From Clavelina lepadiformis (lineage: Eukaryota > Chordata > Ascidiacea > Aplousobranchia > Clavelinidae), in the NCBI RefSeq assembly GCF_947623445.1, contig NC_135243.1, forward strand, positions 22,390,479 to 22,454,478: a DNA stretch of 64,000 nucleotides, written 5' to 3'. The position numbers and the translations under genes were made by a program. Position 1 is the stretch's first letter. Each line of letters starts with the position of its first letter. This document shows positions 15,594 through 59,280 of the stretch, one piece after another. The notes under the pieces were generated by a model. It had not been told where the DNA came from. It did not search any database and was given only the letters and a program-made list of their open reading frames with translations.

Positions 15594-16685
15594 TCACTTT
15601 ACTGTGACAGAAGCTGCCATGGTGACGTAGGGATTTTCGACACGAACATCTTCGGCAAATTGGTAGATGGCAGTCCCTTGCTCATTGGGACAGCTGTGAA
15701 CTGGATCAGAATTGAACGTTGACACAGTTGTTATACCGCTTGAACAACTTGCTGAGATTCCAAGTACTTCAGTGCAACAGTCTTGATTTTGATTTCTGGA
15801 TTCCCATCCTGCATCTTGATTTTTTGGTCCACTCTCCTCGACCAAACCAGCTGAACCCGAACGCAAGGAATTGACTTGCAGTGGAATTAGATTTGAAGAA
15901 GACGAACGTATCTTTTTCTTCCAGCAAATACCGACACCAATTACAAATAAGAGTACGAATAGTACAAGTGGTAGCCCAACAAATAAACCGACATGTAATG
16001 GATCTTTTATCTGCATTGACTGGGTGGAAATAAAGCTTCTTGCGGTTGTAAAACTTTGGCTAGATACTGGAACATCTTTTATCTTTATTGACTGGGTGGG
16101 AGTAAAACTAATTGCCGTTGTAAAATTTTGGCTGGATACCAGCACATCATTTGTTGTAGCAAATGCCGAAGTAGACTGCTCAGTGACGCTTCTATCCTCG
16201 TTATCACCAAAGCAAATGAATGTGCCGGCCTGCTCGCATGGAAAGCTAAACAATTCCGGCTTCGTCTTACGCTTTGCAGAATAAACCATAACTGAACGGC
16301 ACGCTGACGTGCCTGGGTTCTCTCTAATCGCCCCCAGCTCTTCGTGATAGATGGATCTATCAGTCCAAGAATAAAAATCCGAGTTTATCCGTGAGAGGCC
16401 GATGATATAAAATGAAGAGGAGCAACGAGAAGAATTTCGTGGAATATGAGCAACAACATCATCAAAACGTTCCCGACTGTCAAACACCGCCAAACTAGTA
16501 GCACTTTCTTGACACTTTTGCTTTGCAATTGCAAACTCAAGCGGATAGTCGTTATGAAAATAATATGTCCCGTTTAGCGTTTTATATCGCGTCAAACAGG
16601 AATCCATTTCCAAACATATGCTGCGTAACTTAAAAGCAGAAAGAAATGAAAAAGCAATAATTGAAAAATTACACAAAGACAACAT
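15594..16685 (-). CDS. C-type-lectin-like single-pass membrane receptor
   Basis: A single 363-residue open frame, apparently intronless. A hydrophobic leader (residues 1-23) is followed by a C-type-lectin-like domain at about 34-160. IIGL replaces the usual WIGL at 94-97, and cysteines stand at 58, 88, 129, 150 and 158. The EPN/QPD and WND sugar- and calcium-binding motifs are not visible, so classical calcium-dependent sugar binding is doubtful. A Ser/Thr-rich stalk contains two tandem 24-residue units (181-204 and 205-228). A transmembrane helix (about 231-255) is followed by KKK. The roughly 105-residue cytoplasmic tail ends with ENPYVTM, a YxxM sequence of the kind bound by PI3-kinase SH2 domains. 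It lies between BPI-like genes 2 and 3 on the same strand. The surface receptor role is inferred. Confidence 0.85.
   Translation of the reverse strand: MLSLCNFSIIAFSFLSAFKLRSICLEMDSCLTRYKTLNGTYYFHNDYPLEFAIAKQKCQESATSLAVFDSRERFDDVVAHIPRNSSRCSSSFYIIGLSRINSDFYSWTDRSIYHEELGAIRENPGTSACRSVMVYSAKRKTKPELFSFPCEQAGTFICFGDNEDRSVTEQSTSAFATTNDVLVSSQNFTTAISFTPTQSIKIKDVPVSSQSFTTARSFISTQSMQIKDPLHVGLFVGLPLVLFVLLFVIGVGICWKKKIRSSSSNLIPLQVNSLRSGSAGLVEESGPKNQDAGWESRNQNQDCCTEVLGISASCSSGITTVSTFNSDPVHSCPNEQGTAIYQFAEDVRVENPYVTMAASVTVK
16002..16145 (-). repeat. 72-bp tandem duplication in the receptor stalk
   Basis: Two adjacent 72-base units (16074-16145 and 16002-16073) encode VxVSSQxFTTAxSF followed by TQSxxIKD twice. 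The duplication is in frame and lengthens the stalk of the C-type-lectin-like receptor. The copies differ at several positions, so it is not brand new. Confidence 0.85.
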
Positions 16686-17598
16686 ATACTCGGTGTAGGT
16701 TTTTTCTCCCCTAATGAAAAACTAAGTACAGAAATATTTTCATCTAATTCTACAAACTTTTAATTTCATTGATTAAATGGAACCAAAGTACTTCTTATGT
16801 CTGTCATTCTGAATTTATTATTAAACTTATCTTAGCGTATATGCTACACTATAAAAATCTTGCTGCTTTTGATTTCGATGTATCAAGTGACGCGCTGGCT
16901 TGAAACACGGAAATTCTTATGAAGCAAAAGCAATTGTTTGAGAACAATGATGCGAAAGAACGTGCACTAGAAAAAGCTTCGTAAACAATCAGTTAAACTT
17001 ATTTATAGGATACAGTAACAGAATTGCACCCAGTTCTATTAACATGAAACTCAGGCAAGAGAATGATAACTAGTATTCTGATGCCTTAAAACCTCATTTC
17101 AAATTACAGTACATCATTTTAGATTAGAAGAACTTCAGTGACTGATCCACGGACATCATCGAATAAACTTGTTAAGAAATTTTTTATTACACACATTTCT
17201 AATCTGCTAAACACAGCCAAAATGCTTTATTATCTGGATGTATTAGATGTCTTGCCTTAGCGTCTTCGCTGTCCATACCATGTATTTGGTAGCAGAGGAA
17301 ATTTACATTGGCCATATTGAAATGACAAAGTTAAGCGCTGAAACTTTTAAATTCAGTACACTGTTTAGCGTCAAAAAATCAATGTATTTTTATAGCGGAA
17401 TAGCTTTCAAAGGCATTCTTCAGTAATTTTTCCATTAAAGCACGAAAATACTAATGTATAATGGTGATCTCGAAATGCTCGAGGTTAAACATACATGAGG
17501 AACAGGAAATAGCTATGAAACAAACCACAAACAAACAAAAATAAAAGTCTTTGTGTAGCCGAGTCCATTAACAGCAAGTCCAGGTTACGTCATTGACG
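16686..17598. other. Intergenic
   Basis: Between the lectin-like receptor start and the last exon of BPI-like gene 3. No coding frame or RNA gene recognised. Confidence 0.4.
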
Positions 17599-32880: not shown

Positions 32881-35800
32881 GGGGAAAGTGGTGTAAATCG
32901 GACCCAGGCTGATTTGAGGATAATAGCGGTACGTGACGTCACAAACATCATGTGACATGGAAGACGTTAGCAAGAAAACGTGGCAGCAGTTGTGTTTGGT
33001 CTCGTTTCTTTTGTGGTCTAGTTACGAAAACGCAAGTAAACTATTAGGGGTGCTTGATCTTATTTTAGTTCATGCGTTATTTCGATATAATCGGAGGCTA
33101 GAGGCAGGTAGGAAAATAATTTAAACGTTTCGAGACAACTAAAACATTCGCAGATACTGTACCATGACAGTATTAGACTGTCAGTTTGAGATTTTAGTGA
33201 AGAGCCTGAAAGAAATTTCAGCTTATGTTTGTGTAAATTGGACCCCAATAAAACGTGTAATTTGGACCCACATTACAAATTACACGTGGAGGCAGATAAC
33301 ATTACCTGTTTTCTTAGGATATTAAACTGTCATTTTGTGATCCTTCTGATCTTGAACTTAGTACAAACATGACCACAAGAGCTGAGCGAAGGAGCAAAGG
33401 AGTGTATGGAAAGTGGGATGAAGAAGCGATGCGACATGCAATAGAGGCTGTAAGAGATGGCACAATGGGTACAAAAAAAGCAGCCAAACAGTTTGATATC
33501 CCCAAAACGACTCTTCTTAGAAGACTGAAAAAGAACAAGATTGCTCTTGGCAGCCGCAAGATGTTAGGAAGATCTACTGACCTCCAGGAAGAGATTGAAA
33601 ACCAATTGGCAAAGCATATTGAAGATATGGAAGCCAGGTTTTATGGCTTGACATTGATGGACCTTCAAAAGCTTGCATTCCAAATTGCAGAAGCAAATAA
33701 CATTTCTACTAGATTCAACAAAGAAAAGAAAATTGCTGGCTATGATTGGGTGAAAGGATTTCTGAAAAGGCATCCAGAAATATCTCTTCGATCCCCGGAG
33801 GCAACATCACTAGCGAGAGCATCCGGATTTAACAAACCACAGATAGCTAAGTTTTTTGAACTCATTCATGACATTTATGAAAAGAACAACTTAACTGCTG
33901 CCAGAATTTATAATATGGACGAATCTGGGATAAACGTTGTTCAGAAATTGTCAAAAGTTTTAGCTAAGAAGGGGAAACATCAAGTTGGCTCGATAACTAG
34001 TCAAGAGCGAGGACAAAATGTGACGGTTATTTGCTGCATGAGTGCAGCAGGAAATTTTGTCCCACCAGGCTTCATCTTTCCACGAGTGCGTATGAAGGAA
34101 GAGTTGAAGGATGGAGCTCCACCAGGAAGCATGTTCACTTGTCAAGTGAGTCATGTTTAATTGTCTGGCAATCCTACCAGGCAAAACCCATCTTTTCTAT
34201 GTTGATGCTATGTGTGCCGACATTGAATCTATGTAGGACTGTAAAAATGGTGGTTGTTACCACTGGGATGCTAAAGATGTCAAATTTTATAGCCTGCACT
34301 ATTTAGGTTTGCTAGTGTTCAACCAATTGGGCTATAAATTAATTAAACTATGCTCATACTGACAATTTTTTTATTCGTAAAAATTGGTTTTATTATCACT
34401 GTGCTTTGCTTTACAAAATGTTAGTCTCTCTATGCTCAATAGTTCGTAATAAATTTTGAACCTTTTTTCAGAAAAAGGGATGGATGAACAACAACATATT
34501 CTTGGAATAGATAAAACACTTCATCCAGCATGCAAAGCCTAGCCAAGAAGAGAGGGTCCTGCTGATCTTAGATGGACATAAAAGCCACACGCACAATATT
34601 GAAGCTTTAGAGTTGGCATCAAAAAGTGGTGTTATTATGCTTTCATTACCACCACACACCAGTCATCGGATGCAGCCATTAGATTTAACTTTTTTCAAAC
34701 CACTGAAGACCTATTATTATCAACAAATTGAGCAGTGGCTGCGTGCAAATCCTGGACGAGCAGTCTCTGCGTTTCAAATTTGTCGTTTGTTTGGTCTTGC
34801 ATACGGAAAAGCTGCAAATGTTAGCTGTGCGGTGAATGGATTTCGAAAGGCCGGAATTTATCCAGTTAATATGCTAGTCTTTAATGACAGTGATTTTGCT
34901 GCTGCTGATGTCACAGATCAACCCGATCCAGCTGAGAATTCAGATGATCTAATCGCCACCACAAGCTCAGCTCTAGTGGAAAATGCAAGCTCAACTGCAG
35001 TTAACACCACTCCTGCTTGCATCAACAAAACAGCTGAAATCAGCAATCTAGTTTCTGACATGCAAGCCAGCCCTGTAGGCCTACTCTCATCCATTTCTTA
35101 TTCTGAGAAAAAAAAAGTGTTGTAACTGTCACAGATATCAGCCCTCTACCAAAGCGAATCCGATTTATGAATCCTGGTACTAAACGGCGAAAATCTTCAC
35201 GTGCCACAATTTTGACAAGTTCTCCTCATAAAAACACTCTGAATAAAAGAGACAGTGATGTGACAAAAAGAGGCGGTGCACAAAATACTAAACAGAAGAG
35301 AGGAAGGAAAACAGAGAACAAACAAAATTCCATCTGCCTGGTGTTTGGAGATTCTGCAGATGAAGACTGGATTCAATGCAAAAACTGCAAGGAATGGGCC
35401 CATGAAGAATGTGCTGATATTAGTGATTCCAAGTATTATTACTGCGACAACTGTTCGTAAATGTGTGTTTCTGTTTTTGCATGGGTTGTTCTATTTTTGT
35501 GAGTTATCGATGGTTCCAGATTGCACAATCACACATTGTGTAAATTGGACCCCTCATTTGAAAAAATTAAAATTGACTATTTACCAGCAGTGTCATTGAA
35601 TTAGAAACTTATACAGTGAAGTTAGGTGCTATCCGAATAAAATTGAATATTGAGTTGTATGTTTTGGCCAAAAATGGAAGGGGTCCATTTTACCCAACAG
35701 TTGTGTAAATTGGACCCTTAGCATGAAAAAATTTAATTTGGTAGTGTACCTGCAGTTTAAATTATTTTAGCCCGATACTTCGTTAAGTTGTACCTTTCAT

Positions 35801-45834: not shown

Positions 45835-46347
45835 GCACTGGTGAGATAGTGCATTAGAAAACAAAAAACAAAGTAAAAACGATGCTTAAATGCGAGTGAT
45901 ATGTGAGTTGATTTCAGTGGAACATTCAGTTGCAATATGGATTCTGGGGAAAGAAAACGGTTGGTAAAATTTGCATGTTATTTTCCACACCAACCTTGTA
46001 CGAGGTCGATCGAAAAACGAACTCAGACCTTTCTAAATAACGCCAAAAGCTGGGTCGTGTACGAGATAAAGGTAAGCTTTTACGAGCTTGCGGAAGCAGG
46101 TTGACATGATTACGAATTGCAGCTTGGGTTTATGTAAATGACTTACATGGGAATGTGATGGTTATGTTTACGAATACGAAATTCCAAATACAGTTCTTCC
46201 TCGATTATCCGTACCTCGTTTAACCGGCATTCGATTGTCCGGCCGAGTGATCAATGACTTTGGGAGGTCGTTTTACTTCGCATGATTGCACTTGCAACTA
46301 TCATATGCGTGAGATTACTCTGGTTTTTATTTTTCAATTGACGTTGA

Positions 46348-46460
46348 ACCGCCGCCGTAGCTACTACCGATTGAATGGTTTAGTGAGGTCCTCCGATTGG
46401 ACCCGGAGCGGCTGGCAACGGCCGAACCGGTGTCCGAAAAGACGATCTAACTTGATCATT

Positions 46461-46518
<58 letters not shown>
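46348..46518 (+). rRNA. 18S rRNA 3'-end fragment (captured, degraded)
   Basis: Contains the near-invariant GCTACTACCGATTGAATGG, AGAGGAAGTAAAAGTCGTAA, GGTTTCCGTAGGTGAACCTG and the terminal CGGAAGGATCATTA. The upstream edge is altered (CCGCCGCCGTAGC instead of the usual CCGCCCGTCGC). Only about 170 of some 1,800 bases are present, so it cannot give a working 18S rRNA. Confidence 0.9.
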
Positions 46519-46747
46519 TCGAAACGAACGGAGGCTCCCGCTCGAGCTGCGGCGGCGTCGCCGGGAAACCGGCCGCCTCTCGCGCTTGTCGAGGTCAAGA
46601 CGCGCCCGTTGAGGCGCTCGACAAGGCACAAGTCTTTCACGGGCGTCGAGTACCCCCGCGGTTTCAAGTGACGGTCGTCAGATCGTCCGCTCGGCGCTCA
46701 CATTCAAACCTGTGACTGCTTCGTAGAAGCTGAGACGATAAACGATG
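46519..46747 (+). other. ITS1 (captured)
   Basis: GC-rich spacer between the 18S end and the 5.8S start, about 229 bases, in its normal place within the rDNA segment. Confidence 0.8.
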
Positions 46748-46905
46748 ATGGCTCTTGGCGGTGGATCACTCGGCTCGCGAGTCGATGAAGGACGCAGCTA
46801 GCTGCGTGAATTAGTGTGAATTACAGGACACATTGAGCATCGACGTTCTGAACGCGAATTACGGCCTCGGGTTAATCCCGGGACCACGCCCGCCTCAGGG
46901 TCGTC
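46748..46905 (+). rRNA. 5.8S rRNA copy with changes at conserved sites
   Basis: Full-length 5.8S, recognised from GCGGTGGATCACTCGGCTC, GTCGATGAAGGACGCAGC and CAGGACACATTGAGCATCGA. Several positions that are almost constant in animals differ: GAAGAACGCAGC reads GAAGGACGCAGC, AATTGCAGGACAC reads AATTACAGGACAC, and the TTCGAACGC block reads TTCTGAACGC. These fit a decaying copy rather than a working rRNA. Confidence 0.9.
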
Positions 46906-47123
46906 TGAAAAGCAATCCCGGCGCGCCCGTCGCCCGGGCGAATGCGGAGTCGGACGGAGACCTGTGTCTCCGCCGTCCCGTCGAAGTCAGCAAGGGTCCG
47001 GCACGCGATCGGAGAGCGCGGCGGCGGCGGATCGACCTCGAAGAGGTGTCCTCGTTTCGCCAAGTCGCCGCGATCGATCGCGAACGTCGTCGATCCTCGG
47101 CACGTGTGACGTCTCTTACATTT
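46906..47123 (+). other. ITS2 (captured)
   Basis: GC-rich spacer of about 218 bases between the 5.8S and 28S parts. Confidence 0.8.
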
Positions 47124-47145
47124 CGGCCTGAGGTCGAACGAGACT

Positions 47146-47192
<47 letters not shown>

Positions 47193-47385
47193 GAGGATTC
47201 CCTCAGTAACGGCGAGTGAAGCGGGATGAGCCCATCGCCGAATCCGGTCGCTTTTGGAGCGCTCCGGAATTGTGGCGTATAGAATTCGTCTTGCGCGCGT
47301 CGCGGATCGCCCGCGTCCTTCTGATCGAGGCTTCGTCCCATAGCGGGTGTCAGGCCCATGGCGGCGATTTGCGTGCGTGCTCGGT
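47124..47385 (+). rRNA. 28S rRNA 5'-end fragment (captured)
   Basis: Contains ACCCGCTGAATTTAAGCATA, TTACTAAGCGGAGGAAAAGA, AACTAACGAGGATTCCC and CAGTAACGGCGAGTGAAG, the standard 28S start. It ends abruptly at GTGCTCGGT, after which the right end of the Tigger-like element begins. About 260 of several thousand bases. Confidence 0.9.
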
Positions 47386-47586
47386 AAAAATACAAATTCA
47401 ATTATCCGTTTTTTTTGCTTATCCGGTCAGATTTTTGAAAATATTGACCCAACTTGACCGGATAATCGAGGAAGTACTGTATAGTGAAAGCTGTGTTTTG
47501 GACAGGTCAAAAGGGGAGATTATTGCGCAATCGTGGTGTTGTGTTTCTGAGGGGGAAGTATATATTACAATGTTTCACGTTTGAGA

Positions 47587-53594: not shown

Positions 53595-55844
53595 CAGGGG
53601 TCGGCAACCTTTTGCTAGTCACGGGCCAAATGTCGAGTGTACAACTCTTTGGCGGGCCGGAATTTTCATTAATACTATAATTCACACTCACTTGAGTATA
53701 TTACACTGCATTGCTGCAATCTCAATCATACCAATCACAAAAAGAACAAAATTTATGTATTCACACTTCAACAACACAGCATTAATGTGACACTTGATGC
53801 TGCTTGCTTTGTGAAAGTTTTTCAACATCTGGTGACAAGTCAGATGAAGCAAGAACCAGAACATTTTCTAAATGGGCGTCGGAAATTCGGGATCTTAGCT
53901 TGCTCTTCGTGAATTTCATTGTCGAAAACATTTCTTCACATGTGTACGTGCTACCAAACATCGATGCCATTTCTTTTGCATTGTTGGTCAATCTAGGATA
54001 AACACCACTTTCAAGAAGGTACTTTTTGTAAAAGTCAAGCAGCGATATGCCCTTTGTATGAAATTTTGCCTTCAATTCGTCACTGCATTGCATTTCAATG
54101 AGGTCCATTTGAAATTTTTCGGGAATGGTATTGGCGTCCACATCAAACGGAGTACTGAATAGCCTGAATTTATTTTGTAGAGAACGAATGTCGGCAAAGC
54201 GTGAGGGAAATTCAGTAATTAAATTTCGTATCACAGTGACAAATGTAGTGTTGCTACTAGGTTTGCTTTCCTCCAGTATAGGAAAGTGAACATAATTTTC
54301 TTTGTCCAGTTGACATTCCCAGAGTCGCAGTTTTGTTTCAAATGCGAGTATGTGCCTCCACATCTCATGTATCAGTTGTTTTTTCCCCTGAAGTTGCAAA
54401 TTCAATTTGTTCAGATGTGGCAAGATTAGATACCCATTCTAGATTACGAAATTCTGTGGCGTTAATGCTTTTATTTTCAAGGAACGTTGCTATTTCATTT
54501 CTCAGCTCATACACTCGTGCAAGCATAGCTCCTCGACTTAGCCAGCGAACTTCGCAGAAATACAGGGCATCACCATATTGATTCTCTGCTTCTGGTAACA
54601 TCTGGCGAAACTGTCGGTGATTCCGTTTGTGAGACAAAATCATATTCACAGCTTTCACCACTGTGTCCATAACACTCTTCAAGTTTGTTGTCTTGGCGCA
54701 CAACGCCTCCTGGGGAATTAAACAGTGTACCTTTGAGATTTTGTCATTGCGTCCGAGATCTTCCAAGTGTTTTTGAAGCAGAGCAACGGCACCTTTATTT
54801 TTACCGACACCAATTTTGACAGATCGAGGTTCAAACTGTTTGTGCACTGCAACAGTGCCTTCAGAATATCTGCTCCTGTTGTAGTGCCCTTCATAGGAAC
54901 TAACTCAACGAAATCTTCAAAAATATCAAAATTTGAGCTGACTCCACGAACGAATACCGCAAGCTGAGCTGTGTCCGTTGTATCAGTGCTCTCGTCAATA
55001 GCAATTGAAAAGTATTGCAAATTTTTTAGACAATCTTGTTGGCGAGTTTTTACATCCTGTGACATTTCTTCGATTCGTCGGGTGACAGTTCTTGCAGAAA
55101 GGCTAACATCGGAGAATAATTTTTTTTTCTCCGGGCATATGACTTCGACAACGGCCATCAAACAGTCTTTCACGTAATCACCATCAGTGAAAGGTTTCAT
55201 GTTTTTTGCAATTACTTTGGCGACCTCATAGCTTGCCTGAGTGTTTTTTCTGATTCAGTGTTTTGCTTTTGAAATATACTTTACTGATTTTCTAAGCAGA
55301 GTTTAAGACGGTTAATTTTGTCTTTTCTCGTTTGGCCTCTGTACTCCGAAAACTTCGAACGCTTTGTGTCACAATGACGCTTAATATTAAATTCCTTGTT
55401 TACAGAAACAGACTGATTGCAAATTAAGCACGTGGGTTTACCAAAGTGTAGTATGGAAAAGTACTTTTCCGTCCATTCTTCATTAAAACCTCGGCACTCA
55501 TCATCAACCTTTCGACGTTTCGCTAACATCCTAAATTATAACAAACTTTAGGTTAAAGCTCGTGTGCGTCTCTCTTTGTATCTATAACGACTAGTCTAGT
55601 CTACTCTACAGACAATCTCGTACTTATTACGAGATACTAGTCTACCGCCTTCTCACCAGATTTATGGCGTAACAATAGACTAGTACGACGTACTTATGGC
55701 GTAACAACCACAATTTTTTCAAACACTGCTAACACTGCAGTTTGAAACTCAATAAGACACGGCGGGCCGTATTCTTGTGATAACTAATCAATATGTCTCG
55801 GGCCGGACGATTTCGCATGGCGGGCCGTAGGTTGCCGACCCCTG
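53595..55844 (-). mobile_element. Complete hAT transposon with perfect 8-bp target duplication
   Basis: A 2,250-bp element. It begins CAGGGGTCGGCAACCT and ends AGGTTGCCGACCCCTG, a perfect 16-bp inverted repeat. It is flanked by CTGTATGG on both sides (53587-53594 and 55845-55852). GC-rich subterminal words GGGCCGG/CGGGCCG recur near both ends. The 8-bp duplication and CAGGGG ends are diagnostic of hAT. It carries one degraded transposase gene on the minus strand. The perfect target duplication implies a fairly recent insertion. Confidence 0.93.
53782..55529 (-). pseudogene. GTF2IRD2-like hAT transposase, frameshifted
   Basis: N-terminal BED-like finger (MLAKRRKVDDECRGFNEEWT; CLICNQSVSVNKEFNIKRH), then KPFTDGDYVKDCLM, FSIAIDESTDTTDTAQLAVF (first catalytic region), VPMKGTTTG, a KNKGAVALLQKHLE segment, HCLIPQEALCAK, EVRWLSRG and the C-terminal dimerisation block (FGSTYTCEEMFSTMKFTKSK). 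The order matches GTF2IRD2/FAM200-type hAT proteins. Frame breaks lie near 55280, 55240, 54820 and 54400, and the expected TDGAP catalytic segment after LSKLVSVK is missing. The copy cannot make an active enzyme and must have been moved in trans or broken after insertion. Confidence 0.85.
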
Positions 55845-57289: not shown

Positions 57290-58385
57290 TTCCTTCCGAT
57301 AACAAGGGAATGCTGAGTTATTGGTCATCTTCGTCGTTTGAGCGTTTCTTCTTTCCACTTCCAGACTAGATTTCCGGGCATGAGGTCATCAGCCATGTGA
57401 TTGTGTCTTCGTCCAATCTTTTCAGACCACGCACACCATGTGGGGGCCGATGGATTGGGCAGTCATTGATGACGTGGTGTGCTCTGTTGCACCACACCGT
57501 CGGTGTCGGCTATGAAGTCACAGAGACTGGAGGTGTTGTTTTGCCACTCAGTGCTCCACATGTGGTTCGTCCAGTGCGCCGCACTTAGTCCAAGGTCTTC
57601 TGCGCTACTGAGTAGCTGTTGTGCGGCTAGCACAAAGGGGTGTCTTGATTTCAGTCGCTGCTTTCCAGTTGGTGGTCGCTGGAGTGTGGTATGGAGAAGG
57701 TGTTCAGTGTCCAAAGCGCGGCGAGCGAGAGAAATCATGGCTCCTTTGCGGCGTAGCTCAGCAGGTTGGATGCCTGCAAGGATTGGTAAATAGTCTGTTG
57801 GAGTGGGACAGAGGCAACCAGTCACAATACGCAGCGCGTCGTTTATGGCGGGTATGAGAGCTACGACACCACACTGGTGCGCAGTGCTCGGCGGTGGAGT
57901 GGACAAGTGCCAGGGTGGCCATGCGAAGGGTTTTTGCGCCGGCCCCCCAGCCGCCTTAGGAGTGCGACGCGAGCAGATAGTTTATTGCACAGTGACTCCA
58001 AGTGTCGACGATACGTGAGTGCCCTGTCCAAGGTCACGCCGAGGTAGGCTCGGCGCTGTAGGGCAGGTGTTCCCCATTTATACTGATGCTTATCTCACGC
58101 TGTGCTTCCTTGTTGTTAAGGTGGAAGGCCGCCGACACTGTCTTTACCTTGCTGAGCTGCAGCTTCCATTTCTGGAGATATGCAGTGAGTGTTTGCATGT
58201 CTTGGCTAAGATACCTCTCCAACGGCTGCCAGTCTCCGGCAGAATGCAGGAGTGCCAGGTCATCTGCATAGGCATATTTCCTGGAGGTGGTGGTGGGCAG
58301 GTCGTAAGTGTATATGTTGAACAGGAGGGGAGCCAAGACGGAGCCCTGTGGGACGCCGTTTCTGAGTCGGCGTAGTCTGATTGGT
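57290..58385 (-). mobile_element. Non-LTR retrotransposon (jockey/CR1-like), 3' half of ORF2
   Basis: Minus strand: RLRRLRNGVPQGSVLAPLLF (RT motif), YAYADDLALL (the catalytic YADD box), TAYLQKWKLQLSKVKTVSAA. After frame breaks come the thumb and tail region, LCPTPTDYLPILAGIQPAEL, and a final segment HHVINDCPIHRPPHG of the tail-type Cys/His region. Everything upstream of the RT fingers is missing, and the 5' edge abuts copy 3 of the recurring cassette. Several frame breaks. The group is judged from overall motif spacing, so jockey or CR1 cannot be separated here. Confidence 0.8.
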
Positions 58386-58497
58386 GAGCTAAGACACACG
58401 GAAGCAGACGAGACAATAAAGCAACCATGTGTTTCATTACTACTAATCTTGACAACCCTGTGGAACGTATGGCGGGGATTGGAGACACTCCAGCTTA
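58379..58497. repeat. Recurring cassette, copy 3
   Basis: Nearly identical to copy 1, starting ATTGGTGAGCTAAGACACAC and ending at CCAGCTTA. It joins the truncated LINE on the left and Tc1-like DNA on the right. Confidence 0.8.
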
Positions 58498-58524
58498 TGT
58501 AATAAACATTTATATTGTATTTCG

Positions 58525-59280
58525 CATCAAAATTTTTAATATTTGGTGTGGCCTCCTTTCGCTTCGATGACGGCCCTGATTCTTATGGGCATGCTTTCGA
58601 TTAAATTTTTGCAACGGTGTCCAAAAGTTTTCCATAGGGTTAAGATCGGGACTGTTCCCACTGCAGAAGAGTAATTTTCTTAAACCTAAAAACATTTGTT
58701 ACTATATTTGAACGATAGCATGGGGCTACATCTTGCATAAAAATGGTGCACATGTGCAGTTGTAGCTTCTCCTTCATTGAGTGGTTATTGGTTGTAGAAA
58801 AGAGTCCGGCTGTACCTTTGTTCGAAATGGCTCCCTATGTCATCACAATCGGTGAATTTTTCTTCATTTTCCTGAAGGTAGACGGACATTTGTTTTCTTT
58901 GCATCAAACTGTTGGACACTTGATTCGTGCAAAAGAACTTTTCTTTGCATATATTTGATTTGTTTGGTGTTGTATGCCGAGCCAACAGTTTTTCATACTC
59001 CAAATCGCTCGTTATGCATCTCTTTTTTGTTGCGAGGCGATGCCATTTTGACATACCGTATCAAATTGCCGTTCTTTCCTAAACAGTCCCTGAGATTCTA
59101 TGTTCTTTTTGTCAAACCATGCGCATACGCCGCAGTTGTAGCTAGGTCCCTTCTGTGCATAAGGGATCCTAATCGAAGTCGATTTGGTTTCACCAAATAC
59201 AGCGTGGTGGTGGTATGGGCCAACGAAGGTTACGTGGGAGTGGAATTTAAAGTGTTGTTTACAGCAGCTCAATCACAAAC
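58525..59280 (-). mobile_element. Second Tc1-like transposase remnant
   Basis: Minus strand: SSVQQFDAKKTNVRLP, IVMT-x-GAISNKGTAGLFS (VMxWG block), HMCTIFMQDVAPCYRSNIVTN (second catalytic Asp), SGNSPDLNPMENFWT (third catalytic block) and KNLIESMPIRIRAVIEAKGG then HTKY and a stop, the Tc1 C-terminus. Pieces are in different frames. A different Tc1 lineage from the 56095-57190 copy. Confidence 0.75.

Follow-up and report, generated by a model that had tools for sequence, protein, structure and literature searches.

DNA transposons that have captured gene fragments between their terminal inverted repeats (TIRs) are known, among them the Pack-TIR and Pack-MULE elements, which carry host gene fragments and are best known in plants. 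Transposons that reside in ribosomal DNA (rDNA) are known as well, and Pokey and the R2-type elements insert into it. SINE28 and SINE3 are rRNA-derived retroposons copied via RNA, and transposition is a long-proposed route of rDNA movement. Here we describe an 18S-ITS1-5.8S-ITS2-28S block that travels in a DNA transposon of the light-bulb sea squirt Clavelina lepadiformis. The same genome also contains its sister copies, one unoccupied site and the likely partner transposase. The unit that travels holds part of the rDNA and is not a working unit.

The element resembles Pack-TIR and Pack-MULE elements in being a non-autonomous TIR element with contiguous host DNA and many copies; it differs in its cargo (18S-ITS1-5.8S-ITS2-28S), its tunicate host and its Tigger-type ends. 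A host fragment lies between TIRs, and the 26 copies have junctions and founder differences in common. The link between transposon and rDNA is also found in Pokey and R2-type elements, but here the rDNA sits inside the transposon and outside the array. In SINE28 and SINE3, too, a mobile element disperses rRNA sequence, whereas the spacers and part-genes of the present element are moved as DNA and with a TA duplication. Compared with Tigger/pogo transposons (Tc1/mariner superfamily) and their MITEs, the TA target, the 23-bp TIR and the domains of the partner transposase are alike, but where those have a transposase gene, the interior here consists of host rDNA and a piggyBac-type piece. Among the titles and abstract openings listed in topical searches of an open-access library, none describes a Tigger or other DNA transposon carrying the whole ITS region.

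Structure of the element

The window, i.e., the whole stretch of DNA analysed, is 64 kb long (C4:22390479-22454478), and positions of the element are given below as window positions. It belongs to the Darwin Tree of Life assembly kaClaLepa1.1, a 117-fold HiFi assembly with nine chromosomal scaffolds according to the genome report (PMC10884593). The genome sequence that we searched has 95 contigs and 209,060,895 bases, compared with 102 scaffolds and 210,089,204 bases in the report (PMC10884593), and C1 is 5,500 bases shorter than the longest published scaffold, so the searched and published versions differ somewhat in extent.

The whole element occupies 46189..47481 on the plus strand, including the TA at each end. 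The left TIR (46189..46211, plus strand) and the right TIR (47459..47481, minus strand) are 23 bp long with the TA. The left end reads TACAGTTCTTCCTCGATTATCCG and the reverse complement of the right end reads TACAGTACTTCCTCGATTATCCG; they differ at 1 of 23 bases and have the TA outermost on both, which bears out the first-pass annotation of a TA-flanked element with ends one base apart. The window was scanned for inverted pairs of 20-mers lying no more than 3 kb apart with at most one mismatch, using a common 9-base seed at either 20-mer end. The ends of the element were the sole such locus in the 64 kb; a chance inverted repeat is ruled out, there being no second pair of this kind.

From left to right on the plus strand, the element consists of an 80-bp Tigger left end (46189..46268), a 73-bp piece in common with a piggyBac-type transposon (46269..46341, with homology from 46271), a 6-bp filler, CGTTGA, adjoining the left edge of the rDNA (46342..46347), 1,036 bp of rDNA (46348-47383) and a 98-bp Tigger right end (47384..47481). 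Rfam matches on the plus strand follow the order 18S 3' end, complete 5.8S and LSU start. The rDNA comprises the last ~171 nt of the 18S rRNA gene (46348..46518; RF01960, boundary placed by comparison with the host 18S), ITS1 between 18S and 5.8S (46519..46749), the complete 5.8S gene (46750..46903; RF00002), ITS2 (46904..47123) and the first ~260 nt of 28S (47124..47383; RF02543 from model position 1, the end being set by the right-arm homology that starts at 47384). About 1 kb of contiguous rDNA, from the last 170 bases of 18S to the first 260 of 28S, had been read from the letters, and the Rfam boundaries agree with this. The same reading treated 46191-46347 as one non-ribosomal arm, but it is not a single arm, being composed of Tigger sequence, the piggyBac-type piece and the filler. 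At the left junction, the arm terminates in CAATTGA, followed by CGTTGA and then 18S, and at the right junction TAAAAATAC directly follows 28S. The 18S gene also contains CGTTGA, 23 bases upstream of the part that was captured, and we guess that the filler may have been copied from that site.

Elsewhere in the window are a remnant of another pogo-type transposase (33318-35125), with HTH_psq and HTH_Tnp_Tc5 in one frame and DDE_1 in the next, a hAT dimerisation domain (53782-54438, minus strand) and a reverse transcriptase fragment (58034-58582, minus strand). A 375-aa frame at 15594-16721 (minus strand) has a weak C-type lectin match slightly below the Pfam cut-off.

Copies and an empty site

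A search with the whole element returned 47 matches among the best 40 of 196 candidates scored, and 20 of these matches, the near-full copies, span at least 1,289 of the 1,293 bases at 97-100% identity. A 71-base query across the right junction gave 26 candidates; all were scored and every one is a copy of the element, four matching only the first 34 bases of the query and one only the last 46 because of deletions there. Both ends are present in 24 of the 26 copies. A mobile unit was expected to show both arms and identical rDNA junctions at a number of loci, and this is what is found. The ITS2 search (25 of 25 candidates scored) revealed 24 element copies and one further place, C7:2650311-2650542. 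The ITS1 search (29 of 29 scored) revealed 25 element copies, the C7 copy and three 37-bp partial matches in another repeat. Among the 25 matches listed for 5.8S, 24 are element-borne (best 40 of 7,045 first-look candidates).

The copies are spread over C1 (6), C2 (3), C3 (6), C4 (3), C5 (2), C6 (2), C7 (3) and C9 (1), i.e., eight of the nine large scaffolds; none was found on C8 in the right-junction search, in which all 26 candidates were scored. Some copies are altered internally. In element coordinates, L030 and L031 lack 988-1119, L033 lacks 224-561, and L034 and L035 lack 434-1003 together with the final 78 bp of the right end; L029 is interrupted by an insertion. With the duplicated pair L034/L035 taken as one, the unit occupies 25 different sites.

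The flanks of the 26 copies, up to 900 bases, were compared all-against-all; for L030, L031, L033, L034 and L035 the compared stretches start further out than the true ends. L034 and L035 are the sole pair alike on both flanks (99.7%) and are a segmental duplication. One host repeat is common to the flanks of L020 and L028, and five more short pairs match at 70-81%. Intact copies bear TA at both ends. The host repeat beside L020 is the unoccupied counterpart of the L028 site, reading flank, single TA, flank, with 96% identity over 386 bases and 91% over 513; the last 60 bases ahead of the TA contain three substitutions, and the 60 bases that follow it are free of them. Because this site, the one empty site found, has a single TA, the rDNA-bearing unit was inserted whole with TA duplication. 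A mobile rDNA-bearing transposon had been raised as a possibility in the first-pass annotation, and the 26 copies, their mostly different flanks and the empty site with its single TA establish it. L018 and L015 (C1:17625235 and C1:17652790) lie 27 kb apart and are sisters in the tree (89/86), but their flanks differ, which suggests a local hop.

Tigger relatives and a likely transposase

The arms also occur without rDNA, on transposase-bearing Tigger elements and on shortened relatives (L062-L069, 366 to 1,383 bp). Three long elements, L059, L060 and L061, measure 2,450-2,455 bp and have perfect 23-bp TIRs; such a perfect TIR is found in 12 of the 15 rDNA-free relatives measured. L060 has a single 552-aa frame with CENP-B_N (PF04218), HTH_Tnp_Tc5 (PF03221) and DDE_1 (PF03184), all over the Pfam cut-off, and L071 has a 546-aa frame. 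At E <= 0.001, L060 matches a single solved chain, the CENP-B DNA-binding domain (1hlv). The window element is 96% identical to L060 over the left 80 bp and 100% over the right 98 bp, the latter being identical in L059 as well. L059 differs by ~1% from L060 and L061, so the long Tigger copies are roughly similar in age.

The TIRs are thus common to the rDNA-bearing unit and to transposase-bearing elements, the target TA is duplicated, and the partner has a CENP-B-like HTH and DDE_1. We class the element, on sequence grounds, as a non-autonomous Tigger/pogo-type transposon, with the label Tigger taken from the domains, the TIR and the CENP-B match. The long Tigger elements are likely to be the source of the transposase for the rDNA unit.

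The piggyBac-type piece and other interiors

Bases 81-153 of the element are missing from L060. Among the best 40 of 71 candidates, they were found at 99-100% identity in 29 places, which comprise the 26 copies plus three Tigger elements that lack rDNA (L056, L057 and L058), and at 86-93% in at least 11 further places elsewhere. Four of the eleven were checked and align to L056/L057 over 254-312 bp at 79-89%. One of these four, L082, continues into L083, whose 329-aa frame matches DDE_Tnp_1_7 (E 4.5e-51), the Pfam domain of the piggyBac transposase. L080 contains two shorter DDE_Tnp_1_7 matches, one over the cut-off and one slightly under it. Since L056-L058 hold the piece without rDNA and the piece matches a piggyBac-type repeat, comparison shows that the Tigger lineage gained the piggyBac-type piece first and the rDNA later.

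Fourteen family members were compared with L060. Seven (L059, L061, L062, L063, L066, L067 and L069) match it throughout save for deletions, the limits of which are uncertain by up to a few bases at the joins. The remaining seven are L056-L058, which form the lineage with the piggyBac-type piece, and four elements with another interior: L068 (640 bp) and L064 (129 bp) hold one kind, and L065 (353 bp) and L073 (367 bp) hold another. Because other members hold other foreign interiors, the interior appears to have been replaced more than once in the Tigger family. The L065 piece (946-1298) is a high-copy repeat (best 40 of 500 candidates scored) and may therefore represent a nested insertion and not a capture. 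The L068 piece (605-1244), in which no Pfam family scored over the cut-off, occurs again at C6:13021395-13022034 with the same 234-bp spacing from the Tigger right end, and at 76-95% in further places.

The rDNA cargo

The reference for the cargo was the sole ITS1-5.8S-ITS2 copy found outside the element, on C7 (L032, C7:2641811-2651810), which may not represent the main array. In this copy (L032, L076), the end of ITS2 runs straight into later 28S, the first part of which is missing, and it adjoins a 5,000-N run. The family consensus over 172-947 differs from the C7 rDNA by 9 substitutions in 776 bases and one 3-bp deletion. The 5.8S of the consensus is the same as that of the C7 copy, and the window copy has 2 changes in it.

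In the alignment with C7, which covers 24 copies (L034 and L035 being left out), 18 copies retain all the differences from C7. The exceptions are L016 and L031, with the C7 state at one site each, L022, with a third base at one site, L021 and L027, with a deletion, and L033, which lacks part of the region. As 18 of 24 copies keep every difference, a single capture probably founded the rDNA-bearing family. The same observation gives no sign that the host array has converted the copies. The A at 237, which is among the differences, recurs in the 18S of two copies of a dispersed repeat (L037 and L038) and may thus be a long-standing rDNA variant and not a change within the element; C54 and C70 have G, like C7. 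C7 agrees with the consensus at the substitutions that mark L022/L028/L029, L030/L031 and L015/L018 and at positions 635 and 673, as expected if these changes arose within the family. The tree gives good support to the groups L022/L028/L029 and L030/L031 but not to 14 of its 23 inner branches, and its bootstrap had yet to settle.

The 21 full copies diverge from one another by 1.57% on average (range 0.31-2.83%, 210 pairs). In these 21 copies, substitution events per site number 69/584 in the rRNA gene parts and 59/452 in the spacers (p = 0.57); pooled variability is highest in the 28S part (1.39%) and lowest in the 18S part (0.39%). We therefore reject the idea that the copies are functional rRNA genes, because the gene parts do not change more slowly than the spacers. 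The rDNA cargo behaves as an unconstrained passenger.

A second dispersed repeat (L036, L037 and L038; C3:10160872, C6:17128308 and C1:3055295) carries a large 18S piece and the first ~37 bp of ITS1, followed by ~0.8-1 kb of common non-rDNA sequence at ~98% identity. Three frames beside this repeat on C3 had no Pfam family over the cut-off.

Origin of the rDNA-bearing unit

We consider it highly probable that a Tigger/pogo-type element had its transposase gene replaced by host rDNA and spread from one capture. A Tigger lineage acquired the piggyBac-type piece behind its left end, and the interior of one member was later replaced by the 1,036 bp of rDNA, which reach from the last part of 18S into the first part of 28S. 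The likely route is repair of an excision gap, in which the repair strand would have switched to an rDNA template and then been joined, with little homology, to the opposite Tigger end. Template switching during gap repair is a model known from other transposons. The unit has since moved into TA sites and forms subfamilies of descending copies; transposase from other Tigger copies would recognise the common ends and drive this movement. The presence of the spacers ITS1 and ITS2 in the cargo fits copying at the DNA level, although it is no proof of it.

Insertion of an rDNA fragment into a pre-existing short Tigger MITE, which then went on jumping, had been offered beside capture as an explanation. 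The existence of shortened relatives makes a MITE target conceivable, and such an insertion would give a similar-looking product. However, none of the scored candidates (40 of 131 and 40 of 71, a sample that a rare MITE could escape) is an rDNA-free element in which the 153-bp left arm directly meets the 98-bp right arm; the only rDNA-free loci with the 153-bp left arm (97-98%) among them are three elements of 1.8-1.9 kb, all with transposase sequence, and no duplication of arm sequence flanks the rDNA. We thus favour capture by the pogo/Tigger element and regard insertion into a MITE as improbable.

Misjoining of reads from the high-copy rDNA array into Tigger copies would also place rDNA between Tigger ends, and rDNA is assembled poorly here: two contigs end within 18S, and the C7 rDNA adjoins N runs. 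Against such an artefact, which we hold to be very improbable indeed, stand 26 loci with common junctions and mostly different flanks in a 117-fold HiFi assembly, the depth being that given in the genome report (PMC10884593). Private and subfamily mutations lie inside the rDNA, and the C7 differences are fully kept in 18 of 24 copies. A lack of other loci with these arms had been named as grounds for abandoning the mobile unit, but the arms are common to many loci. Just as little credence can be given to many independent captures by a capture-prone family. Foreign interiors do occur in the family, namely the piggyBac-type piece, the 640-bp piece of L068 and C6:13021395 (partly also in L064) and the high-copy repeat of L065 and L073. 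The left breakpoint, the filler and the C7 differences, however, are common to the copies (24 of 26 aligned), and so is the right junction unless deleted. A single capture followed by transposition thus remains the preferred origin.

Consequences

The dispersed rDNA cassettes might serve as homologous landing sites into which working units recombine, founding new nucleolar loci. We regard this as a long shot; if it were true, transposon capture would be an initial step by which rDNA arrays move from one chromosome to another.

The first-pass annotation had also warned that such a transposon would mislead ITS barcoding, and this is plausible. The cassette consensus contains exact sites for the common primers ITS5 and ITS1 and has two mismatches to ITS4. 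Most of the main rDNA array is missing from the assembly, so the element-borne shares of the ITS2 and 5.8S matches say nothing about copy numbers in the animal. Since 24 of 25 ITS2 places and 24 of the 25 listed 5.8S matches are element-borne and the ITS5 and ITS1 sites are exact, ITS barcodes or rRNA annotation drawn from this genome can pick up pseudogenes.
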